In this document: positions 2,751 through 14,714 of the stretch, piece after piece
Layout of the letters: every line of letters starts with the position of its first letter
Numbering within the stretch: the first letter of the stretch is position 1
Assembly: GCA_030268105.1 (NCBI GenBank)
Contig: BSDZ01000043.1
Span: forward strand, 39,343-103,342
Reading direction: 5' to 3'
Source: Volvox africanus
Taxonomy: Eukaryota > Chlorophyta > Chlorophyceae > Chlamydomonadales > Volvocaceae
DNA: 64,000 nt
The notes under the pieces: model-generated
Seen by the model: the letters and a program-made list of their open reading frames with translations, nothing else
Told to the model about the DNA's origin: nothing
The model's database searches: none
Position numbers and translations under genes: made by a program

Positions 2751-3998
2751 CAGGAACCCGGGCAAGGTCGGCTGAGGTACAAACGGCGGCAGTAACGGGC
2801 AATCCTTCGTAGGATGACTCTCCGCGCACCGTAGACAAACATTGGCCGCTTTCCGACGTTCGAACTCGGAATGATTGCAATTCCATTTTGGCATAAACGA
2901 GTCATCCGTGCGAGTCCGCTTCGCATTGGGGTCAGAGCGCTGTGCGGCTGCCGACGACGGCGCACCACCACGCTTCCTGCTCTTAGCCGGGTCCGAGCTC
3001 GGACCTGCTCCTCCTGACCCGCGGACACCCGAGCTAGCGCCCCCGCGCGCCTGGCGTTGCCGGTTGCTGCGTCGCGTCGCGGCAGTAGGTGTGGGGCGGG
3101 TCGCTCCGAGTTCCTGGTCGAGAGCTACAGCTTCCCCAAGCGGATCCTGCACTTGCACGGCATTTGCACGAGGGGCAGACTTGACTTCTTCCTCACCGGC
3201 AAGGAGTCGTATCTCCGTACCCTTAGCAAAAGTGACCAAGGCATCATACGACTTGATCGGCACCCCAGCCAAGTCAGTAGCGCACCATTTAGCCTAAAGG
3301 TTTGTCAGGCCTCGCTTAAACCAAAAGACACGCTCGGTTTCGGTGAGATCAGCAATGGGGGTCACAAGTGCTTCGAAGCGTGACTGGTACGCAGGTACAT
3401 TTTCACCCCGACGCATGTGGTAGCTACCGGCTGCCAAAACCTTACGAGCCTCCACATCACGTGCTTGAACCTCAGTAGCGAACCGTGCGAGCAAAGCGGC
3501 GATCATCTCGTCAAAAGTATAGTCGCCCTGGGCGGTGGTCCATTCGCGATACCAGTCCTTCGCTGAGCCCTCGAGGGTGTTACCAACGAAGAGACACCTG
3601 ATACCATCATTATCGCCACCTTGAACAGCCTGGAGATACTTTTTAGCGTCACGCACGTACGCACGAGTTGCATCGGCTATGCTAGGTCCTGGTGTCTTTT
3701 CAGTCAGCGAGATATTGAGCCTAGGAACGGGAATTGACAATCTCATCACCTCAGGGATGTCATCATGCCCTCGAGCTTGAGGTAATGGCAGAACCCTTGG
3801 TCCAGCAGTGTTGTCCATATTCGTATTAACTGCTGAATGCGGCACAATTAAGTGAGCAGGGGTCTGAAGGACAAAGGGCTCTTGAGTGGCTCGCGTGCCA
3901 ACAGTCTCAAGACCTCTATCCGGCGCTCTAGCAGCCACAACAAAATCGGGTTGGCTAGCTAAGCTAGTGTGCGGCGTATCGTCACGTTCCACGGACAT
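2718..3998 (-). pseudogene. gag: Gag of element A1, frameshifted
   Basis: Starts at an ATG (3996-3998) with MSVERDD. A capsid-like region follows (YVRDAKKYLQAV, LFVGNTLEGSAKDWY), then a basic S/G/R-rich stretch and a zinc knuckle of the form CX2CX3HX4C. The frame breaks at about 3295 and resumes in 2718-3272. Compared with element A2, the UAG context at the gag end is replaced by a 7-bp deletion (near 2785), so gag runs on to a TAA about 20 codons later and overlaps the pol frame by about 170 nt. Confidence 0.85.
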
Positions 3999-4464
3999 GG
4001 AACACGAAGTGATACCCTAGGTTTGCGTAACAGAAGCCGACTTCTATCGCAAAGGCAAGAGTACAAAGCGATTTGGTGAGCCTACCGACAGTACTCTTGA
4101 GAAGATTCAGTAAACTCAGCAAGTACTTGCCCAGCTGAGTCCTGATCTCCGTAGTTTGGGCGATGAGAGTCGCCAACTGGTCCGGACGAAAGCCGGTCTC
4201 AGTCACCGCGGCAAGCAATGCCGGTGCACTGAGATTACCTGCGACTCAGAGCGTACACTTACACAACAAGTGCAGCAATCTAAGCAAAAGCAATTAAACA
4301 ATTACAAACCGGAAGCGGCGGCGTCCAAAACGGCGCGGCCTAGGTCTTCGGCAAAAGTATCTAGCGGTCCTCGTGGTTCGTCGCTGGAACTCGCCATAGA
4401 AAGAACCTACTTCCGATTAGACAAAGGGAGACAGTTAGGCAACGAACCTGTCTCGATACCAATT
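3999..4464 (-). other. 5' leader of element A1 (PBS, leader peptide)
   Basis: Lies between LTR and gag. It holds the PBS-like TTGGTATCGAGACAGG next to the LTR (about 4446-4462) and the leader reading frame (MASSSDEPRGP-type, with the ATG mutated to ATA here). The second leader segment ALLAAVTETGFRPDQ follows. Confidence 0.7.
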
Positions 4465-5296
4465 TGTTGTACCTCTCCTTCGTGTTTGCACATAAGTATC
4501 TGCGCGTCTGAAGGCTTTGGACACCGATGCGCGAGCACTTGCAAGTACAACAAGGCAAGCGCGAGCAAACAGAGACAGCGGAAGACTTCAAGACAAGAAG
4601 AGATATAACTTACAGTCTTACAGATCGGTGCGGTGCAATGGACGTAATCGCCGTCAGCGCCGGAAGCAAGCAATCATCACGCGGCGGTGATAAGCGAAGT
4701 TTAGGCTTAGCTCGGGCTAAGTAGAGTAGCGTATAGCAATGATAATGTAGAACACACGAGTGTTCTCCGGTGTCGAATATCTTATCTTGCTTAGCCGTCC
4801 TCGCATCTGTTATACTCGTAGCATCGCAATGCCGTACGATTCACACTAGGAGGCCGATCCTAAGTGTGACAACCCTACTGCGTATAGGCGATGTCCAAGC
4901 ATAACAACGTATAAGCCTTTCCGGCATTCGCATGATGCAAGGGTCCGGATAACAATATCCGGTTGCAGGGCATGCATCGCGACAAGTGCGGCGCTCTCAA
5001 CGTGTGCTGTAATGAAGTAATATTATATCAAATAATATTACTTATCGTTTCGTAGCACGAGCATAATGCGCACTTCAATGATTCGGTATTTCATGCATGC
5101 TAGGCGGATTTGCCATGATGCGATGTTGCGATGGATAATGATGACATGCCAAATGCATATATAAATATATACGAATATATTTATATCATGCCAATTCATT
5201 CATATGCATTAATCGTTCATGCGTTCATCAAGATAACACTTCGCCTCGTAGGGTCGCATCGACCTACATCGGCGGGAAATGAACCGTAGCACAACA
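4465..5296 (-). mobile_element. Family A LTR, 5' LTR of element A1 (minus strand)
   Basis: 832 bp, bounded by TGTTGTGC (at 5296, minus strand) and ...GGTACAACA (at 4465). Contains the ordered palindromes described in the findings. The stem ATAAATATAT/ATATATTTAT at about 5160-5183 differs from other copies on both arms together. The flank at 5297 is protease sequence of a second family A copy, so this element landed inside another. Confidence 0.93.
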
Positions 5297-6062
5297 GATC
5301 CTGCCCACGATGGGATGCTTACCCCCGTCAGCAAGGGTAACCTGTGGACAATCATACGATTCTGGGGTCAACCCCAGCGCATTCACCTCTGCAGCAGAGA
5401 TGAAGTCGTCGCTGGCACCGGTGTCAACGAGTGCCTTCAGGGTACGGCCATTTAGACCGACCTGAATCACCGGGACACGGTTATCTACAAGCGACTGCCC
5501 AGCAGATCACGTTAGTGCTCTTTGGGCGGGTCCGTAACCACACGGAACCCTCATCAGGAGCTTCGTACCAAACGTCAACCGAGTAGGATGTGCCTGGCCA
5601 CGGAGCCAGCATACCCTCCCGATCCACACCGTTAAACAAAACGGTGCCCGGCTCGAACCGGTGGACACGCCGCATACCCCTTAACGATGCCTCTGCCTTG
5701 CACCGACAGAAAGCGGGGAGTAATACACATGCGGCGGTGCCTGGATATTGACGCCTACATCTCCTATAAACGGCCAACTGTTCCGAAATCTCACGCAGAG
5801 ATGAGGGGATGAACAAAACCACGTGGTTAGACAGATCGATAGATGACAGGGGACGGCGTGGGGTAAACAGATTACACAGCGGATCGAAGCAGAGAAGTCC
5901 CGTGCGTCCGTCAAGCGTGACGTGTCGCGCAATGACTCGCTCGATGTGTCCAAGTACGCAAGGCAACAATGCCTTCATGGCTGGTCGTAAGGATGACCAC
6001 CGACCACGTGTTAGTTCAGCAATCCCGGGTGGTGCCCCCTCCGCAGGAACCCGGGCAAACCC
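5297..6062 (-). pseudogene. pol: Pol N-terminal part of element A2
   Basis: Same frame as the upstream gag, separated only by TAG (6063-6065). It encodes the MTase-like segment (about 5500-6060) and then, after a frameshift, retropepsin with DTGASDDF (about 5420). It is cut at 5297 by the LTR of element A1; RT and everything downstream are absent from this side. Confidence 0.8.
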
Positions 6063-7304
6063 CTATTCGGGCTTAGGGCCCAACGGCGGCAGCAACGGAC
6101 AATCCTTGGTAGGATGGCTCTCCGTGCACTGTAGGCAAACATTGGCCGCTTTCTGACGTTCGAACTCGGAACGATTGCAATTCCATTTTGGCATCAACAG
6201 ATCATCCGTGCGAGTCCGCTTTGCATCGGGGTCAGGGCGCTGTGCGGCTGCCGTCGACGGCGCGCCCCCACGTTTCCTGCTCTTAGCTGGGTCCGAGCTC
6301 GGACCTGCTCTTCCTGACCCGTGGACACCTGAGCTAGCGCCCCCGCGCGCCTTGCGCTGTCTGTTGCTGTGTCGCACCGTGACAACAGATGCAGGACGAG
6401 TAGCTCCAAGTTCCTGGTCCAGAGCCACAGCTTCCCCAAGCGGATCCTGCGCTTGCACAGCATTTGCACGAGGGGTAGATTTGACTTCTTCCTCACCGGC
6501 AAGGAGTCGTACCTCTGTCCCCCTAGCAAATGTTACCAAGGCGTCGTACGACCTGAACGGCACCCCAGACAATTCAGTAGCGCACCATTTAGCCAAAAGT
6601 TTCGTTAGGCCTCGCTTAAACCAAAAGACACGCTCATTCTCGGTGAGGTCAGCGATGGGGGTCACTAGTGCTTCGAAGTGTGACTGGTATGCAGGTACAT
6701 TTTCGCCCCGACGCATGTGATATGTACCGGCTGCCAAAACCTTGCGAGCCTCAACATCACGTGCGTGCACCTCAGTAGCAAACCGTGCGAGCAGAGCGGA
6801 AATCAACTCGTCAAACGTGTAGTCAATCCGGGCGTTGGTCCATTCGTCGTACCAGTCCTTCGCCGCACCCTCGAGGGTGTTGCCAACGAAGAGACACCTG
6901 ATACCATCATTATCGCCACCATGCACCGCCTGGAGATACTTCTTAGCATCGCGCACGTACGTACGAGTTGAATCGGCTATGGTTGGGCCGGGTGTCTTAA
7001 GGTTTTCATTCAGCGAGATTTTAAGCCTAGGTACGGGAATTGTCAATCTCATCACCTCGGGAATGGCAGCATGCCCTTGCGTTTGAGGTAGAGGAAGACC
7101 CCATGGATCAGCAGCGTTGTCCATATTCGTATTAACTGCTGAACGCGGCACAATTAAGTGGGCAGGGGTCTGAAGGACAAGAGGTTCTAGAGCAGCTCGC
7201 GTGCCAACAGTCTCAAGACCTCTATCCGTAGCTCTAGCAGCCACAACAAATTCGGGTTGGCTTGCTAAGGTAGTAAGCGGCGTATCGTTGCGTCCCGCAG
7301 ACAT
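6063..7304 (-). CDS. gag: Gag polyprotein of element A2 (intact frame)
   Basis: A 413-residue uninterrupted gag, the cleanest in the window. It begins at ATG with MSAGRNDTP. Residues of about 110-270 form the capsid-like region (YVRDAKKYLQAV, LFVGNTLEGAAKDWY, YHMRRGENVPAYQS). A basic, S/G/R/P-rich region follows, and a zinc knuckle CX2CX3HX4C lies near the end. It forms the virus-like particle and binds element RNA. It stops at TAG (6063-6065), and pol continues in the same frame, followed by a CCCGGG...CCCGGG hairpin starting 7 nt downstream. That arrangement suggests readthrough. Protein divergence from the other A copies is clearly higher, marking an older or separate sublineage. Confidence 0.9.
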   Translation of the reverse strand: MSAGRNDTPLTTLASQPEFVVAARATDRGLETVGTRAALEPLVLQTPAHLIVPRSAVNTNMDNAADPWGLPLPQTQGHAAIPEVMRLTIPVPRLKISLNENLKTPGPTIADSTRTYVRDAKKYLQAVHGGDNDGIRCLFVGNTLEGAAKDWYDEWTNARIDYTFDELISALLARFATEVHARDVEARKVLAAGTYHMRRGENVPAYQSHFEALVTPIADLTENERVFWFKRGLTKLLAKWCATELSGVPFRSYDALVTFARGTEVRLLAGEEEVKSTPRANAVQAQDPLGEAVALDQELGATRPASVVTVRHSNRQRKARGGASSGVHGSGRAGPSSDPAKSRKRGGAPSTAAAQRPDPDAKRTRTDDLLMPKWNCNRSEFERQKAANVCLQCTESHPTKDCPLLPPLGPKPE

Positions 7305-7776
7305 GGAACACGAGACAATACCCTAAGCTTGCATAGTAGAAGACGACTTCTACCGCAAAGTCAAAGCTAGAGTACAAAACGATTCGGTGAGCCTACCGAT
7401 AGTACTCTTGAGGATATTTAGCAAATTCAGCAAGCATTTGCCCAGCTGAGTTCGAATCTCCGTAGTTTGAGCGATAAGAATCTCCAACTGGTCCGGGCGC
7501 AAGCCGGTCTCAGTCCTTGCGGCAAGCAATGCCGGAGCACTGAGATTACCTGCGACTCAGAGCGTACACTTACACAACAAGTGCAGCAATTTAGACCAAA
7601 GCAATCAAAACAATTACAAACTGGAAGCAGCGGCGTCCAACACGGCGCGGCCCAGGTCTTCGGTGAAGGTATCTAGCGGTCCACGTGGTTCATCGCTGGT
7701 ACTCGCCATGGAAAGAACCTACTTCCGATTTGACACAAAGAGACAGTTAGGCAACGAACCTGTCTCGATACCAATT
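7305..7776 (-). other. 5' leader of element A2
   Basis: PBS-like TTGGTATCGAGACAGG adjoins the LTR. The leader frame begins MASTSDEPRGPLDTF (ATG near 7710), and the second leader segment follows. Confidence 0.7.
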
Positions 7777-8580
7777 TGTTGTACCTCTCCTTTGGGTTTG
7801 CTCATAAGTATCTGCGCGTCTGAAGACTTTTGATACCGATGCGCGAGCACTTGCAAGTACAGCAAGGCAATCGAGAGCAAACAAAGACAGCGGAAGACTT
7901 CAAGATGAAGAGAGATATAACTTACAATCTTACAGACCGAAGCAATGCAATGGACGTGATCGCCGTCAGCGCCGGAAGTAAGCAATCATCACGCGGCGGT
8001 GACAAGCGAAGTTCAGGCTTAGCTCGGGCTAAGTATAAGAGCGATTAGCAATAATAATGTTGAACACAGAAAAAAAATGTCTTATCTTGCTTAGCCGTCC
8101 TCGCATCTGTTATACTCGTAGCATCGCAATGCCGTACGATTCACACTAGGAGGCCGATCCTAAGTGTGACAACCCTACTGCGTATAGGTGATGTTCATGT
8201 ATAACAACCGATAAGCCTTTCCAGCATTCGCATGATGCAAGGGTCCGAATAACGATATTCGGTTGCAAGGCATGTATTGCGACGAGTGCGGCGTTCCCGA
8301 CGTACGCTACAATGAAGTAATATTATATCAAATAATATTACTTATCGTTCCATAGCACGAGCATAATGCGCGCTTTGATTATTCATGCATGTTAGGCGGA
8401 TCAGCCATGATGCGATGTCGCAGTGTATAATGGTAACATGCCAAACATATATAAATGTATGCAAATACATTTATGTCATGCAAGTTCATTCATATGCATC
8501 GATCATTCATCAAGTTAGCTCATCGCCTTGTAGCGTCGCATTGACCTACGCATTGGCGGGAAATGAACCGTAGCACAACA
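7777..8580 (-). mobile_element. Family A LTR, 5' LTR of element A2 (minus strand)
   Basis: 804 bp with termini TGTTGTGC (8580) and TACAACA (7777). The boundary to unrelated sequence at 8581 is sharp and interrupts the 3' side of the Josephin-like reading frame. The last residues of that frame are therefore LTR-encoded. Confidence 0.93.
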
Positions 8581-9428
8581 TATTGCACCAGGTTCACGTG
8601 GCCACGTCGCGTTTTCGTCACTGAGTTCCACTGGTTGCGGTTGCAGAGAGTCGTGGATGTACCACCGGTCCTTGTGTTTTCGTACCTTGTGATTGCATGA
8701 CCTGTGAGGTGTACGAGGAAGCCCCAGTTGCGTGCGTGTTCTGGCAGTTGGTGTAGTACGCTGCTTAACGTCACATTGGGTTTTATTTCCTGTCCACTCC
8801 CTATGGAGGCAACATGCAGGTGTGCGGAGTCATTTCTTTGCTGTGCAGTTCGCACCGGCACGTTGTAGCGTAGGTACGGATTGATTGCCAGCGTTGAGAA
8901 GTTGCCTGTGTTTTGGTTGTGGGTTAGTCGCCATGTGGCGGCTGCATTGTGGAGTTCCGGGTCAGCCATGTGTTGCAGCATTATATGACAGTATTGCAGT
9001 ACGTGCTGTGGGTCGATGTATGGTCCCCGTAGTAGGTTGTTTATGGTGTGGATCATGCAGAGCTCTTTCTGCTGTTGCTCGTGGTAAAGGGTGTCATCTG
9101 GGTTGTGCGGGTTTGTCATTATCGGCCATGTGACTTGTTTTGATGGGGCCCCGGGCCCTGTTAGCCGCCACACTCGTGTGTTGCTAAGGGGATGGGGTCG
9201 CTCGGTTCGCATGGTTTCATCTTGTGGGCCCACACATTGGGTGCTTTCCGTTCCTTCAGGGTGTCCCTCTATCCCTGGAGCGGAGTCTCTATCCCAACAG
9301 GCAATCATTATCAGTGTAACGATGAGGATTATTGTGGCACCAAATATCGTGTTCTGTGGTATCGCCAAGCCGGCTATCAGATAGATGTGTATCAGCCAGC
9401 TTGCATGTCCCTTTAGCCCTTCAGGCCT
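8581..9428 (-). CDS. Membrane-anchored Josephin-type cysteine peptidase (3' end cut by LTR)
   Basis: The frame is open on the minus strand from 9428 and has no early ATG: the apparent start at 9368 is TTG. About 40 strongly hydrophobic residues at the N-terminus (ATIILIVTLIMIACW) give one or two membrane spans. A linker follows, then a Josephin-like domain. LYHEQQQKELCMIHTINNLL carries the oxyanion Gln and catalytic Cys, GNFSTLAI matches the middle helix, and GFLVHLTGHAITRYE supplies the catalytic His. Known Josephins (ataxin-3, JOSD1/2) hydrolyse ubiquitin and are not membrane anchored at the N-terminus. The domain assignment is by eye from these motifs. The 5' end overlaps the preceding membrane-protein frame by 16 nt in the -1 relation. 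The 3' end is lost to the element A2 insertion at 8581. It could be a peptidase of a virus-like polyprotein or of a mobile element. Confidence 0.6.
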
Positions 9429-10153
9429 TTACCAATTGCGGGGATACTGATCGACAGAATGGAGGCCGTTGGGGCTGCTGTGGCCAGCTGTACACATAGT
9501 GTGACCAGTGTGGCTGCTGACACCATTATCTGCCTAGTCGCCGATGGGTGCTGACCTGCCCACTTGATTGTTTCAGCAGCATAGATTGCGCAGGCGAGAG
9601 CAAGGTCTCTTGCTACGGGTACGGCGCTGGCTGCTATTCGTGTAGTGAAGTGTCGTAAAACCCAAATCAGTCCAACTGTTAGTAATGTTAAATGGATGGC
9701 TAAGTCCAGTGGTCTCAGTGCTACTGCACAGGCGAGGGGCACTGACAGCATAGCCGCAAGTAGGATCGTGTTGCCTGTCTGTTGCATGGATCTCCCTTTG
9801 CTTCGGTTCCACTGTCTTGCTGCTCTATTGACTTTGTAGAGTGCATACGTTACCCCAAGGCCGGCAATGATACTGTACCCAATGAGGATCGTAATTTCGA
9901 GATCGTACAGCAGTGCTTTGATGGTATGGGAAATTAGGTGCCCACCTGCGCGCATTACATCCCCTGGCAGGTGCACCCCAGTCAGTGTGCTTCTTCCCCG
10001 CATAAGATAAGGCAGAAAGGCTTTCCGGATGCCATGTGATGCGATCCATGGGCTAGCCAATCCAAGCATCGTCCCTGCAGTCAAAGATGGCGAGTTCTGG
10101 TGTGTGTAATGCACTTGTGGGGCATTCACTGTACGACAAAGGTTGTCCAGCAT
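9413..10153 (-). CDS. Multi-span membrane protein, unrecognised
   Basis: 246 codons from an ATG at 10151-10153 to TAA at 9413-9415. Four to five hydrophobic segments are visible (ITILIGYSIIAGLGVTYALY, ILLAAMLSVPLACAVAL, LAIHLTLLTVGLIWVL, MVSAATLVTLCVQL). The ATG is directly preceded by TGA, and the frame upstream is the same one as the 231-codon secreted-protein frame. The 29 codons between the two TGA stops are open. The simplest reading is one former coding region with two Trp-to-stop type changes. I do not recognise the family. Tight spacing, shared strand and lack of introns suggest a polyprotein-like organisation with its neighbours. Confidence 0.55.
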   Translation of the reverse strand: MLDNLCRTVNAPQVHYTHQNSPSLTAGTMLGLASPWIASHGIRKAFLPYLMRGRSTLTGVHLPGDVMRAGGHLISHTIKALLYDLEITILIGYSIIAGLGVTYALYKVNRAARQWNRSKGRSMQQTGNTILLAAMLSVPLACAVALRPLDLAIHLTLLTVGLIWVLRHFTTRIAASAVPVARDLALACAIYAAETIKWAGQHPSATRQIMVSAATLVTLCVQLATAAPTASILSISIPAIGKGLKG

Positions 10154-10243
10154 TCAACCAGCAACGTTCACACCTCCTTGGGCTGTGACCTTGATGTCAG
10201 GTGGTTGTTTGATGGATCTCCTTAGATGTCCCCATAATCCTAT

Positions 10244-10939
10244 TCATTGCTTATGGTGGGCTTCGTTGGTTACCAGGTCGTTCGCCTGCAAGTTTCTTAG
10301 GTCTTCCACGTCCTTGCCTTCGTAGTTGCGGCATTTTCCAGAGACCATTCTAGTGTTGCAATTTGTGATTGCAATGATGTATTTTTCTGTTAGGTGTATA
10401 CAGTCAGAAGCTGCTCCTCGAGAAGGGTAGTCTGTTCCAGGTGTCCTTCTGTAGGTTCTGTTTGTAACGTATCTTAGAGAATTATCAGGTCTGTGGAATG
10501 CTTTTTCACAGACTTCGCCATCTGCTGGGCAAGAGTTGCTCTGGCTGTGGTCCTCCTTCAGACCCATAGCCTGGTCGTCACGAGCTGACTCTGAGAAGTA
10601 GGGATATGCATTTACGGCCTTTTGCTTGGTCTCAGTTGGTGGTGAAGCCTGGGCTTCCCTGATTTGAATAATTGGCAGCATCCAGTCGTGACTTATAATG
10701 ATGTTGAAATTAAATTGTTTGGTGCGTTCTTTTCGTGACCCCTCCGGCAATCGCGTCCCACATGTGGCACGTTCCTGCACGTTCGTCGATTGACAAGGGG
10801 GGGGGTGACAGGAAAACACGGGTTCCACCGCTGCCGGAGCCAGGCTGTCACAGAACGCTGTTATCAGCTTGTAGAGTGTTAGGCATAACAGAACGCGGCA
10901 GATTGCAGTCTTTCGCCTCACCTTTTGCTGACTTACCAT
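10244..10939 (-). CDS. Secreted or ectodomain protein with signal peptide, unrecognised
   Basis: 231 codons from ATG at 10937-10939, with an in-frame TGA four codons upstream, to TGA at 10244-10246. Residues of about 10-29 (TAICRVLLCLTLYKLITAFC) form a signal peptide. The rest is hydrophilic with about 8 cysteines and an NRT glycosylation site, as in an ectodomain. It is followed in the same frame by the membrane-protein frame. The start region reads ATGGTAAGT, which also fits a splice donor, so an exon boundary there cannot be excluded. Function unknown. Confidence 0.5.
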   Translation of the reverse strand: MVSQQKVRRKTAICRVLLCLTLYKLITAFCDSLAPAAVEPVFSCHPPPCQSTNVQERATCGTRLPEGSRKERTKQFNFNIIISHDWMLPIIQIREAQASPPTETKQKAVNAYPYFSESARDDQAMGLKEDHSQSNSCPADGEVCEKAFHRPDNSLRYVTNRTYRRTPGTDYPSRGAASDCIHLTEKYIIAITNCNTRMVSGKCRNYEGKDVEDLRNLQANDLVTNEAHHKQ

Positions 10940-11156
10940 TTTTAAATTTCAGCAGCTCGCCTTGTTGTTATTGGAAGCTTTTATGTTATATTACTCAAAA
11001 ACTAGTTTATTAACAAATACTCCATCCTTGCGACCCTGCTTACAAACTCGACGAGGAAAAAACAATTTGTAATTCGTGATATTGCTATATACGCAAATAA
11101 TAATGTCAGGGCGGAGCTTCTCAGTCATCAAAACGCTTCACATACATATTGTGTGT
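10940..11156. other. Spacer without recognisable feature
   Basis: AT-rich, with stops in all frames. It separates the virus-like block from the 3' end of the PAN-domain gene; a promoter for the former and a polyadenylation region for the latter would both be expected here. No specific motif can be assigned. Confidence 0.4.
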
Positions 11157-11572
11157 TCATGAGCAAACGGAGATTGCAGGCAGTGGGACCGAATCACAAA
11201 TATACACTTCATAAAAGCCCAACATATAATGTCCACAGAAAGCGATGATCTGGTCCGTAGACCATGAATTGCAATTTCCATAAATGGAAGCCGCACATTC
11301 ATCACTAGAATAGCCGTATTTTTTCCTCAGTTCTGAGATGACTTTGTTAATTTTATCACAGCCCGCTTGGGATGTGGCCCACACTGCACTGTTGCACATG
11401 ACGGGATAGCTACTGGGAACCTCACCAAAGCAAAAGAATAAATCACTTAAGGAGTATCCATCAGCACATTTAGGGATGCACATCCCATACACTTCATCAT
11501 AGCCGCTCTTGCAGGGAGGAGAGATGTAGTAACCTTCTTTGCGGTTGTAGGCTTTTCGAAGGCAGAAAGAAC
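11157..11572 (-). CDS. Predicted C-terminal exon of the PAN-module gene: Cys-rich domain
   Basis: Candidate exon opening after GATGCAG (acceptor, phase 1) at 11572 and running to TGA at 11157-11159, 138 codons. It has about 14 cysteines, including GYDEVYGMCIPKCADGYS and CAASIYGNCNSW, typical of disulphide-rich extracellular modules. Family not recognised. Its phase matches the donor of the short proline exon at 11903-11969, which supports membership of the same minus-strand gene. The TGA inside that exon would prevent it being reached by normal translation. Confidence 0.5.
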
Positions 11573-11902
11573 CTGCATCTGTATGTACATGTAAGCGGGT
11601 GGTCGTGCATAGGGACCAAATCCCAATTGGAAATCGTTTGCTGGAGTTTAATCCAAGCTGAGCAAGCAATTCATGGATCTAGCTTTCAGATACATACAGG
11701 TACAGTGAGACCCATCGCAGTAATATGCACTGGTGGTGAAAGATGGATGTCTGCCCACTCCAAATAATCACCAGCCATCGATCTGCAGCAGGTGATGAAC
11801 GAATCAACAAACCCTAAAACCCTAAGCCAGCATAACTGGCCTCAGATGAACTTCTCGTGCCTAAACATCACCTGTTTAAACATCTTGTGTTTCCCAATTT
11901 AC
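11573..11902 (-). other. Intron-like spacer
   Basis: Between two candidate exons. A CCCTAAAACCCTAA stretch at 11813-11826 is telomere-like but only about two units long. No coding signal stands out. Confidence 0.35.
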
Positions 11903-12320
11903 CTGGTGATGGTAGTCATGGTGATGGGGGTGGTGGTGATGGAGGAGGTGGTGATGGGGGTCCACTTGCCTGCGACCAGCAGTGAGGGAATGCACCAGCC
12001 AGAAAAATAGTAAGGCAGGATGGTGTACCATTGCACGTGCTTCATTCTGTGCACCGACCATGCATGTGAGGAATACCCAGTATTATTAGGCAGCCGCCTC
12101 ACGGCCATCAGTTGCACGATGATATTAATTTCAGTTGATAACGTAATCAACTGGCTAGGTATATAATTCTGGATCATGATAGCCGGCAAATTAAGGCTGT
12201 CCTATAATATGGCGGCACACTAAACCTATAAATACACACAAAAAAATATATATATATAGACAACTAGAGACATGTGAGCGAGGCGGCGGTTGGAATAATA
12301 GTTGTGATGTCGTTTCAGCA
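11870..12320. repeat. Diverged partial copy of the 2.9-kb unit end
   Basis: Homologous to the proline-linker exon region and following sequence of the complete units (compare about 14640-15000). It differs by many substitutions and ends where unit 1 begins, so it is an older remnant at the array edge. Confidence 0.7.
11903..11969 (-). pseudogene. Short proline-rich exon remnant with in-frame TGA
   Basis: Equivalent to the start of module exon A: GTCGCAG acceptor, then ASGPPSPPPPSPPPPSP. Codon 18 is TGA (11916-11918), followed by LPSP and a good donor CCAG|GTAAAT at 11902. Length 67 nt gives phase 0 in and phase 1 out. This exactly bridges exon C of module 1 (phase 0) and the C-terminal exon (phase 1). 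The PAN half that follows in other copies is absent. Confidence 0.5.
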
Positions 12321-12560
12321 ACCACCTACGATGACATAGACGGGTCACTCAAACAGACAATTATGAGCAACCTAATGATTCCCAACTGCCACATACAAAC
12401 CCTTACACCGATGGGGGTGGTGGTGGTGAGTGTTACATATTACATACCACAAGGAGCAATTATCTGTTGATGCAAACAACTGTGCAGCGTTAGGCAGGTA
12501 GGTGGAAAGGTTGGGTATGCGGTATACATAGAATAGGAAAGTGGGTATGAAGATACCCAC

Positions 12561-14714
12561 CCTGAAGCAGACTTTGTCCACATATGTGCTTGTATTTGTA
12601 GGTCCACAAACGCCAGTCAGTGGGTTAAGCTTCAAGTAACAGTAGTTGCCATCTGTGTGAACAAAGAACTCGCATCTTGAGTCTTGACTGCATGCATTAC
12701 TGCAACTCTGTAGACTGATGTTTGTGGCAAAGGAAGGACACGCTTTGGCGATGTCACCCACGTGGTCTCCTTTTACGTCATAATCTGCAGCACATTGGTA
12801 CTGGCCACCTGCATCGATCCACACACACATCAAGAGCGGAGGGCATACAATCTCAAAGGCACGACATTTGGCTCTTCAGAATTTATCTCAGGACACAACC
12901 AACATACATTATACATCCGAGGAAAAATAATGATCCCATATTTCATCGGCCCAAATTGAAGTTGCTGTGGTGAAGTCAGTATGGGGCTGGGTGGCACCTG
13001 TATACATGAGGATTATGATATCCATCGTCATCATAGTGACTTGCTTGCAAGCCCACTGTGATAGGAGATTTCTATTGGACGTCACTGAACCTCTGCTGTG
13101 TGGCATCCACCACTCACCGCCTAATGATGAATAAATGCGCGTAAACCTTTACCCCCTTTACATCCTCGGGGCCCAGCTGTTTATCAAAACTGCTACAAAT
13201 AAGATCAACATTGGGACCCCAGGGGCCAGGGAAAGAATGCTGCACCCACCTTCACACTTATTATTCCAGTCAGCACACATGATACGCCAAACACACATCA
13301 TTTTGTGTCTTCAAATTAGTGCAGAGTTGCTTGAGGAGGTATAGAGTTGTAGCCCTCTCCCCAAACCACCATACAGAGTGTGTAGATGCATGCCCATCAA
13401 CATGCAGCTGCTGATTGAACTTATCCTATCTTGTGCGCGACCCCCGACCTATCTACCTACCATGCGTACTTTCCACCCAGGCCGTCCCTACCCTGCTGGC
13501 TCTATCTGGATCCCTGCAACACCAGCCTTTGATGACCTTAACTCCCTGACCTATCCCTTGACCTATTTTGACCTCGATTGATCTCTTGATTTTGATGAAT
13601 AGCTTCGTTCCTATACCATGGCCTGTACATACCATAGTTTGGGCGCACGAAGCAAAGTACATCCACGTAGTTTGGGCTGTAGTTATTGCTTCCAGCGGTT
13701 CCATTAAGAAACGAATACTTAAGATAGCACTTGCGGTCAAGAGTTCGCACAGAAAAGGTACACCTGTAGGAATGATCAATTTGCAGTTGCAAATGAAATG
13801 TACACCCAGTTGCATGCATGCATGTATGCTTTATGCATGAACCATATGTATGCATGGGATACATGTACAATGCACTGCATGACATATGTATATACGTACT
13901 TTATAATGGACCATGCTCTAATAACAAGAAAGAGCTCACCAGAAAGAGCTTACATCAGGATTAGATGTCCTAATCATGATCACGATACTACACTTACACA
14001 TTACACCGCATTGCATAGTATACACATACTTCATGCGCGCGCATACACACACACACACACACACAAGGCATACTAATACGTGACATACAAGAATGAATGA
14101 ATGATGCACCTTCAGGGCATTCTTTTAAACATTGTCGAGACATTTTATTTGTTTGGTCCTCCACATATGTTTATATACATATATACATGTATACGTGTAT
14201 ATATAAATATATATACATACCTAGTATTCGCGCCCTGTCACTCAAGCGACATTAGATGATGATGCAAATAAATTGTGCAGATGAATGCATGACCAGTTCA
14301 GGAAAGCATGCATGCCAGCTATGGAACTACATCTGCTAAGCGTAATACGTAACGACTGTCGTGCATGCACGATGCATATACATACTCATGATAAGGCAGC
14401 GAGCATCATATGTTATACCTATATACCTACATGGGCTCATTGTAACACTCCTGGCGACAAGCGAGATAGTCGACTGTTTGGTTAATGATTCGAATGTCCT
14501 TTCCAAGGAAGTCAATTTTAGCGTAGCAGCCCCAAGGCAGAGCTGGTGCTACAGGCGGTGATGGTGGTGGTGGTGATGCCAGAAGCGGTTTAGGAGGTGG
14601 TTGAGGCCGCGGTAAAGGAAGCTGTGGTGGAGGTGGTGATGGTGGCTTCGGTGATGGGGGTGGTGGTGATGGGGGTGGTGGTGATGTGGGAGGTGGTGAT
14701 GGGGGTCCACTTGC
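12561..14714 (-). CDS. PAN module 1: proline linker plus two PAN/Apple domains (exons 14431-14714, 13633-13763, 12561-12808)
   Basis: Three exons on the minus strand. Exon A (284 nt) follows GTCGCAG and encodes about 58 residues of SPPP repeats, then the first half of a PAN/Apple domain (GCYAKIDFLGKD...ACRQECYNEP). It ends CCCAT|GTAGGT in phase 2. Exon B (131 nt) follows CCTACAG and completes the domain (CTFSVRTLDRKCYLKY...VLCF), ending TATG|GTATGT in phase 1. Exon C (248 nt) follows GATGCAG and encodes a second PAN domain with CSNACSQDSRCEFFVH and CYLK, ending AGG|GTGGGT in phase 0. The sum is 663 nt, exactly 221 codons. PAN/Apple domains bind protein or carbohydrate outside the cell, and the linker resembles hydroxyproline-rich wall glycoproteins. 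Exon C can splice in phase to the next exon A, so modules may be repeats within one gene rather than separate genes. Confidence 0.65.
14044..14066. repeat. (CA)n microsatellite inside the unit
   Basis: A run of about 11 CA repeats. It is present at the same place in each unit and two bases shorter in units 3 and 4, which explains their slightly shorter period. Confidence 0.9.

Follow-up and report, generated by a model that had tools for sequence, protein, structure and literature searches.

A truncated LINE in Volvox africanus, probably of the Dualen/RandI type, with a Josephin-like protease ahead of its retrotransposon enzymes

Proteases of the ubiquitin or SUMO type are already known from several kinds of mobile elements, and among the long interspersed nuclear elements (LINEs), Dualen elements with a cysteine protease were reportedly described by Kojima and Fujiwara in 2005. 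The published statements that follow are taken from excerpts of the cited papers. Elements of the Dualen kind combine an apurinic/apyrimidinic-type endonuclease (APE) and a restriction-like endonuclease (RLE) with RNase H (PMC4640811), RandI elements of green algae end in (ATT)n or (CTATTT)n tails (PMC3747384), and Dualen LINEs were reported in all curated species, volvocine algae included (PMC8226300). NeSL and Utopia elements also place an N-terminal ubiquitin-type cysteine protease ahead of the reverse transcriptase (RT), namely Ulp1 (PMC4640811). The transposase of Ginger1, a DNA transposon, has OTU at its C-terminus in some cases and Ulp1 in others, and the authors propose that transposition involves the ubiquitin pathway (PMC2836005); Helentrons, likewise DNA transposons, carry OTU-like proteases (PMC4067079). 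Here, we analyzed 64,000 nucleotides of Volvox africanus DNA (the window; contig BSDZ01000043.1, positions 39,343 to 103,342 of the forward strand), in which a minus-strand stretch between 10990 and 8581 is almost certainly the truncated and decayed 5' end of a non-long-terminal-repeat retrotransposon. As a whole we favor, at a probability of roughly 0.8, a LINE of the Dualen/RandI type with a Josephin deubiquitinase that would guard the element's own protein.

An earlier note, made from the window sequence, had described three open frames on one strand, two of them in the same frame and the third overlapping by 16 bases, and our listing of open frames agrees with this layout. On the minus strand, 10948–10247 encodes 234 amino acids (its ATG at 10939), 10153–9416 encodes 246 amino acids in the identical reading frame, and 9428–8523 encodes 302 amino acids in a different one, overlapping the second by 16 bases. 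The third frame runs beyond 8581 into the flank, with the homology to the element ending at 8580. The parts of the element in the window are:

10940 to 10990, minus strand: 5' end of the LINE with a short 5' untranslated part (common terminus in copies; homology edge at 10989–11000).
10247 to 10939, minus strand: first frame from its ATG, with a hydrophobic leader (10909–10850) and a poorly conserved "ectodomain" (open frame, hydropathy).
9416 to 10153, minus strand: second frame, a hydrophobic and possibly multi-span membrane block (hydropathy).
8581 to 9428, minus strand: element part of the third frame, with the last hydrophobic segment (9380–9318) and a Josephin remnant (Pfam PF02099, hydropathy).
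8581 to 8829, minus strand: last part of the Josephin remnant, shifted to another frame and including the putative catalytic Asp at 8652–8650 (open frame listing, alignment).
8580 to 8581, no strand: truncation point, where the APE, RT, RNase H and RLE part is gone and repeat sequence follows (copies run past here).

This stretch is a dispersed repeat with at least 45 matches in the 141-Mb genome. Homology of the other copies to the window extends from about 10990 to 8580 and ends there, while the copies compared with one another share the 5' edge and many continue far beyond the 8580 point. The 5' terminus is identical in all 14 fetched copies with an alignable start; their upstream flanks differ in most cases and are shared within L009/L011, within L014–L016 and within the window group. 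Against L018 and L030, two adjoining fetched stretches, only window positions 10989–8580 match. From the common terminus and the copies running past 8580, we therefore place the 5' end of the element at 10990 and the cut-off of the window copy at 8580, so that the earlier suggestion of a mobile element that lost its remainder stands.

Everything that is split among the three window frames is covered in L018 by a single frame of 1839 amino acids, in the order leader, hydrophobic block, Josephin (residues 625–777), APE (1011–1227) and start of the RT, which resumes beyond one in-frame stop. In the window copy, leader, hydrophobic block and the Josephin Cys and His lie in three open frames, and the Asp in a fourth piece. 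We compared 18 other copies, leaving aside L022 and L023 as copies of the window's own segment (L014–L016 look like one locus triplicated). In nine of them a single frame contains both the hydrophobic block and the Josephin Cys, in two the leader is joined to these as well, and in five the APE is in frame with the Josephin Asp. Counted from the ATG, L012, L014–L016 and L018 (5/14 aligned copies) have matching frame positions, and the rest vary. Since the frames are joined in other copies, the TGA codons and the overlap of the window are best read as damage and not as a coding strategy, and we interpret the three frames as pieces of one frame, not as three separate genes. A GTAAGT, matching the 5' splice-site consensus, directly follows the start codon (window 10939–10931, minus strand).

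The remainder of the element identifies it as a LINE. A frame of 1812 amino acids in L020, which runs off the fetched stretch, contains the hydrophobic block, Josephin, Exo_endo_phos (E 8.6e-9) and RVT_1 (E 8.7e-26), hence a LINE-type RT and APE in one frame; RT, Josephin and APE all exceed the Pfam cut-off in both L018 and L020. L030 is open for 1442 amino acids with RNase H (PF00075, E 6.8e-16, above the cut-off) and, at its C-terminus, the motifs CxxC...H...C, RHN and RPD...E[VI]GY...D...K, which we take as the signature of an RLE-like end; RPD...E[VI]GY is conserved. In the copy read across L018 and L030, the parts from the leader to the RLE-like end follow one another in a single frame interrupted by one stop. 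A profile of the relatives matched best to R2 and LINE-1 ORF2 proteins among solved structures. The R2 structures align across the RT (E 5.2e-52); in the three that were listed, the zinc/RHN part close to the C-terminus of R2 also aligns, although weakly (i-E 0.029, 0.0028 and 0.0035). All five 3' ends examined (L030 and four others) carry an (ATT)n or (ATT)n-like tail. Because APE, RLE, RNase H and (ATT)n tails occur together, the element very probably belongs to the Dualen/RandI clade, a call made from anatomy, with no protein named Dualen or RandI among the 120 listed from our RT search. Around the RT of this LINE, a PCIF1-like region (PF12237, presumably a relative of RNA-cap methyltransferases) lies between RT and RNase H (L030:2-4327, residues 684–770 of P0001; E 1.3e-4, below cut-off) and is also called in many RT relatives. 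In addition, an identical direct repeat of 212 bp, very long for a target-site duplication, flanks the L018/L030 copy (L018:3495-3706, L030:4460-4671); of three copies tested, one has a clear flank repeat and the two others do not.

The Josephin assignment of the earlier note, which pointed to Gln, Cys and His motifs, holds up in a profile search. The third window frame matches Pfam Josephin PF02099 over residues 119–184 with 22.4 bits (E 1.2e-4), below the curated threshold of 26, and the genomic copies exceed it with 39.3 bits (L020) and 39.2 bits (L018). The window retains Gln at 9074–9072, five residues ahead of the Cys at 9059–9057, and His at 8699–8697; it is incomplete through a break between His and Asp. 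All four residues, which we take to be the catalytic ones, are present in open copies and relatives, and in the alignment the Cys is found in 19/19 rows reaching the site, the His in 20/20, the Asp in 20/20 and the Gln in 18/19. Sequence matches to solved structures include JOSD2 (6pgv, E 1.8e-4) and ataxin-3. The fold comparison gave weak matches, to PcJOS, PaJOS and ataxin-3; these are Josephins, and the lack of a papain-like fold that was to speak against the proposal did not show up, the Josephin fold itself being tentative. Ataxin-3, JOSD2 and the bacterial JOS clippases share the Gln-Cys-His-Asp pattern, whereas the LINE Josephin is fused to a hydrophobic block and to retrotransposon enzymes, an arrangement unlike that of cellular Josephins, as had been noted.

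Next, we looked at relatives. A protein search with the hydrophobic–Josephin stretch returned a single match, P0003, a metagenome protein of 2472 amino acids (71% identity over 87%), against which 178/196 Josephin residues are identical. The RT search returned 140 proteins; among the 120 listed were P0009 of Pleodorina starrii, which has a Josephin and is named ubiquitinyl hydrolase 1, and proteins of Haematococcus lacustris, five of which have a called Josephin among the matches listed. A profile built from the relatives' Josephins matched 20 of 122 collected proteins. The homologues found are LINE proteins and not ordinary spliced cellular genes, the outcome that would have spoken against the earlier note's proposal. 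In an RT tree of 117 rows, consisting of unnamed rows and the Pleodorina and Haematococcus proteins, the window's LINE groups with P0003 (98), then with P0004 (99), near P0009. Josephin is scattered over a branch of 88 rows, with 13 changes as counted, a number inflated by fragments.

Purifying selection acts on the Josephin about as strongly as on the RT. We measured the ratio of nonsynonymous to synonymous substitution rates (dN/dS) against L018 with 15 copies pooled, dropping L015 and L016 (same open reading frames and values as L014) as well as L022 and L023 (window-type); decay after insertion shifts all these ratios upward. The Josephin gave 0.22 (bootstrap 0.14–0.38), a value that rose to 1.09 and 1.35 when the frame was shifted, and the other parts gave 0.19 (RT), 0.29 (middle), 0.47 (APE) and 0.65 (linker). 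An alternative run keeping L015 and L016 (8 to 17 copies per region) showed the same picture.

The N-terminal part is different, and here a first point weighs against a tethered deubiquitinase: the dN/dS of the hydrophobic block, 0.65 (0.41–1.03), lies near the values of its shifted frames (0.56 and 0.81), so no constraint is evident across the 15 copies. Leader and ectodomain gave 0.56 (shifted frames 0.79 and 0.82), and only 53/277 aligned ectodomain residues are identical in P0003, against 117/217 in the hydrophobic block. The same LINE might therefore carry, ahead of its selected Josephin, a fast-evolving N-terminus of no fixed role that is not a membrane part. In favor of this, the 17 other Josephin LINEs have zero to two hydrophobic segments before the Josephin. 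We nevertheless consider it rather unlikely: P0002 (from this genome), P0003 and P0009 each have six hydrophobic segments despite a block in which only 37/172 residues are identical between P0002 and P0009, and relatives without Josephin have at most three. Hydropathy places one leader-like segment at 10909–10850, four in the second frame (9913–9857, 9778–9707, 9703–9647 and 9529–9473) and one in the third. Of the signal peptide and membrane anchor proposed in the earlier note, the hydrophobic segments themselves are confirmed, the name signal peptide is a label drawn from hydropathy, and membrane insertion is putative.

Fragments are frequent among the 120 database proteins (an APE was found in 63 of the 122 collected), and we scored the protease in the 30 proteins with at least 400 residues before the APE, P0002 included. 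Josephin is present in 18 of these. Ten of the other twelve (all except P0050 and P0071) were scanned by profile and by OTU and Ulp1 motifs that we assume to be diagnostic: three have an Ulp1-type protease, two an OTU and five neither, so that OTU or Ulp1 occupies the place of Josephin in half of those scanned. The Ulp1/C48 calls are P0088 (E 4e-5), P0046 (E 3.5e-4) and P0060, the last by motif with a Pfam E of 0.13, and the OTU calls are P0076 (E 0.0023) and P0093 (E 0.0016), both below the Pfam cut-off and made from the DGDCL[FY] motif. The protease place seems interchangeable among relatives. Using what we take to be the 2A pattern, we also observed 2A-like NPG/NPGP motifs in five of the 122 proteins, namely P0051, P0052 and P0054 of H. 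lacustris, P0013 and P0117. The motif lies between leader and Josephin in P0013 and the three Haematococcus proteins; the window's own family (P0002, P0003, P0009) is without it. A 2A-like N-terminal sequence has been described, in the excerpted text, that combines the functions of a signal sequence and a recoding element (PMC4981915), which is a possible parallel.

How such a protease might serve the element can be sketched from these comparisons, and we give the resulting working mechanism about even odds. The element RNA would be translated to a polyprotein of ~3,500 residues, whose N-terminus the hydrophobic block would tether to a membrane, with insertion and topology being putative. The Josephin, with predicted activity and substrate, would strip ubiquitin from the element's protein or ribonucleoprotein, or from a host factor, and thereby spare it from proteasomal or endoplasmic reticulum (ER)-associated degradation. 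APE and/or RLE would then nick the target, where the RT would copy the RNA beginning at the (ATT)n end. Anchoring at a membrane would be in keeping with an escape from ER-associated degradation, a pathway in which ataxin-3 participates.

As the main alternative, the Josephin-fold peptidase of the same LINE may chiefly process the polyprotein, freeing APE and RT from the hydrophobic leader. It sits between leader and enzymes within one long frame, the window's family is without the 2A-like motif that some relatives carry, and OTU and Ulp1-like folds also act in viral polyproteins. We regard processing as doubtful and prefer deubiquitination to self-cleavage, because the Josephin persists in P0013 and the three Haematococcus proteins where a 2A-like motif already stands behind the leader, and because the alternatives in its place are OTU and Ulp1; each of the three folds seen there is typical of ubiquitin or SUMO removal.

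The earlier note, which called the block virus-like, had also considered the polyprotein of an endogenised virus or a cargo region of a large mobile element. A leader, a membrane block and a cysteine peptidase in one polyprotein do resemble virus layouts, and a giant-virus Josephin protein is the best match in a library of viral structures, but at an E of 1.3. The element continues in other copies as APE, LINE-type RT, RNase H and an RLE-like end, one scan of a viral contig collection (viral_contigs) gave 0 confirmed relatives, and three records of a phage collection match in short stretches confined to the RT (25–28% identity). Pfam scans of the L018, L020, L029 and L030 frames found no virion or virus-polymerase family. 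A viral origin, as an endogenised virus or as cargo of a large element resembling one, is thus highly improbable.

Compared with the described systems, the LINE of the window resembles Dualen/RandI in its APE and RLE, RNase H and (ATT)n tail; what apparently sets it apart is a Josephin as the protease, placed after a hydrophobic block of several segments, together with the PCIF1-like region. The claim that no described system has this arrangement was too strong: with a cysteine protease reportedly present in Dualen, a protease in such a LINE is as such probably not new. The papers listed by our literature searches included no report of a Josephin in a LINE, nor of an exchange between Josephin, OTU and Ulp1. 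NeSL and Utopia differ in having Ulp1 and no APE, and the excerpt of PMC4640811 reports no membrane block, a feature that was not specifically searched for. For the DNA transposons Ginger1 and Helentron, Josephin is not mentioned in the texts of PMC2836005 and PMC4067079.

A wider proposal is more tentative still than the working mechanism. Dualen/RandI-like LINEs may dedicate the slot before the APE to a ubiquitin or SUMO protease, by turns Josephin, OTU or Ulp1, coupled to a multi-span anchor in one lineage and to a 2A-like break in others. Host ubiquitination may restrict the LINE, with the ER or the nuclear membrane as a conceivable site, and this would be the reason for it to carry a membrane-tethered deubiquitinase of its own. 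With three ubiquitin-type folds at one place and a Josephin under selection, a need for ubiquitin removal in LINE retrotransposition becomes testable, and, if true, it would tie host protein quality control to the control of LINEs.

Finally, the surroundings of the truncated copy show some features of their own. Nine places are 97–100% identical to the window stretch (contigs C118 twice, C42 twice with the window included, C120, C49, C117, C119 and C73), and the other genomic matches are 83–95% identical. Those of the nine that were fetched also have common flanks and therefore look like later copies of a whole segment. This segment with the truncated LINE (window 7081–12439) is near-identical at the nine places, mostly on short contigs or near contig ends, with pairs ~47 kb apart on C42 and ~37 kb apart on C118. 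It may be a large repeat, perhaps located towards chromosome ends or centromeres, or else an artefact of the assembly. Window positions 3777–5299 and 7081–8580 both match one same stretch of L001. Elsewhere in the window, Gypsy-like gag and pol frames were identified by eye, and at 11157–12875 of the minus strand there are cysteine-rich open frames (for example 12372–12875) that have, by eye, a PAN/apple-type look.
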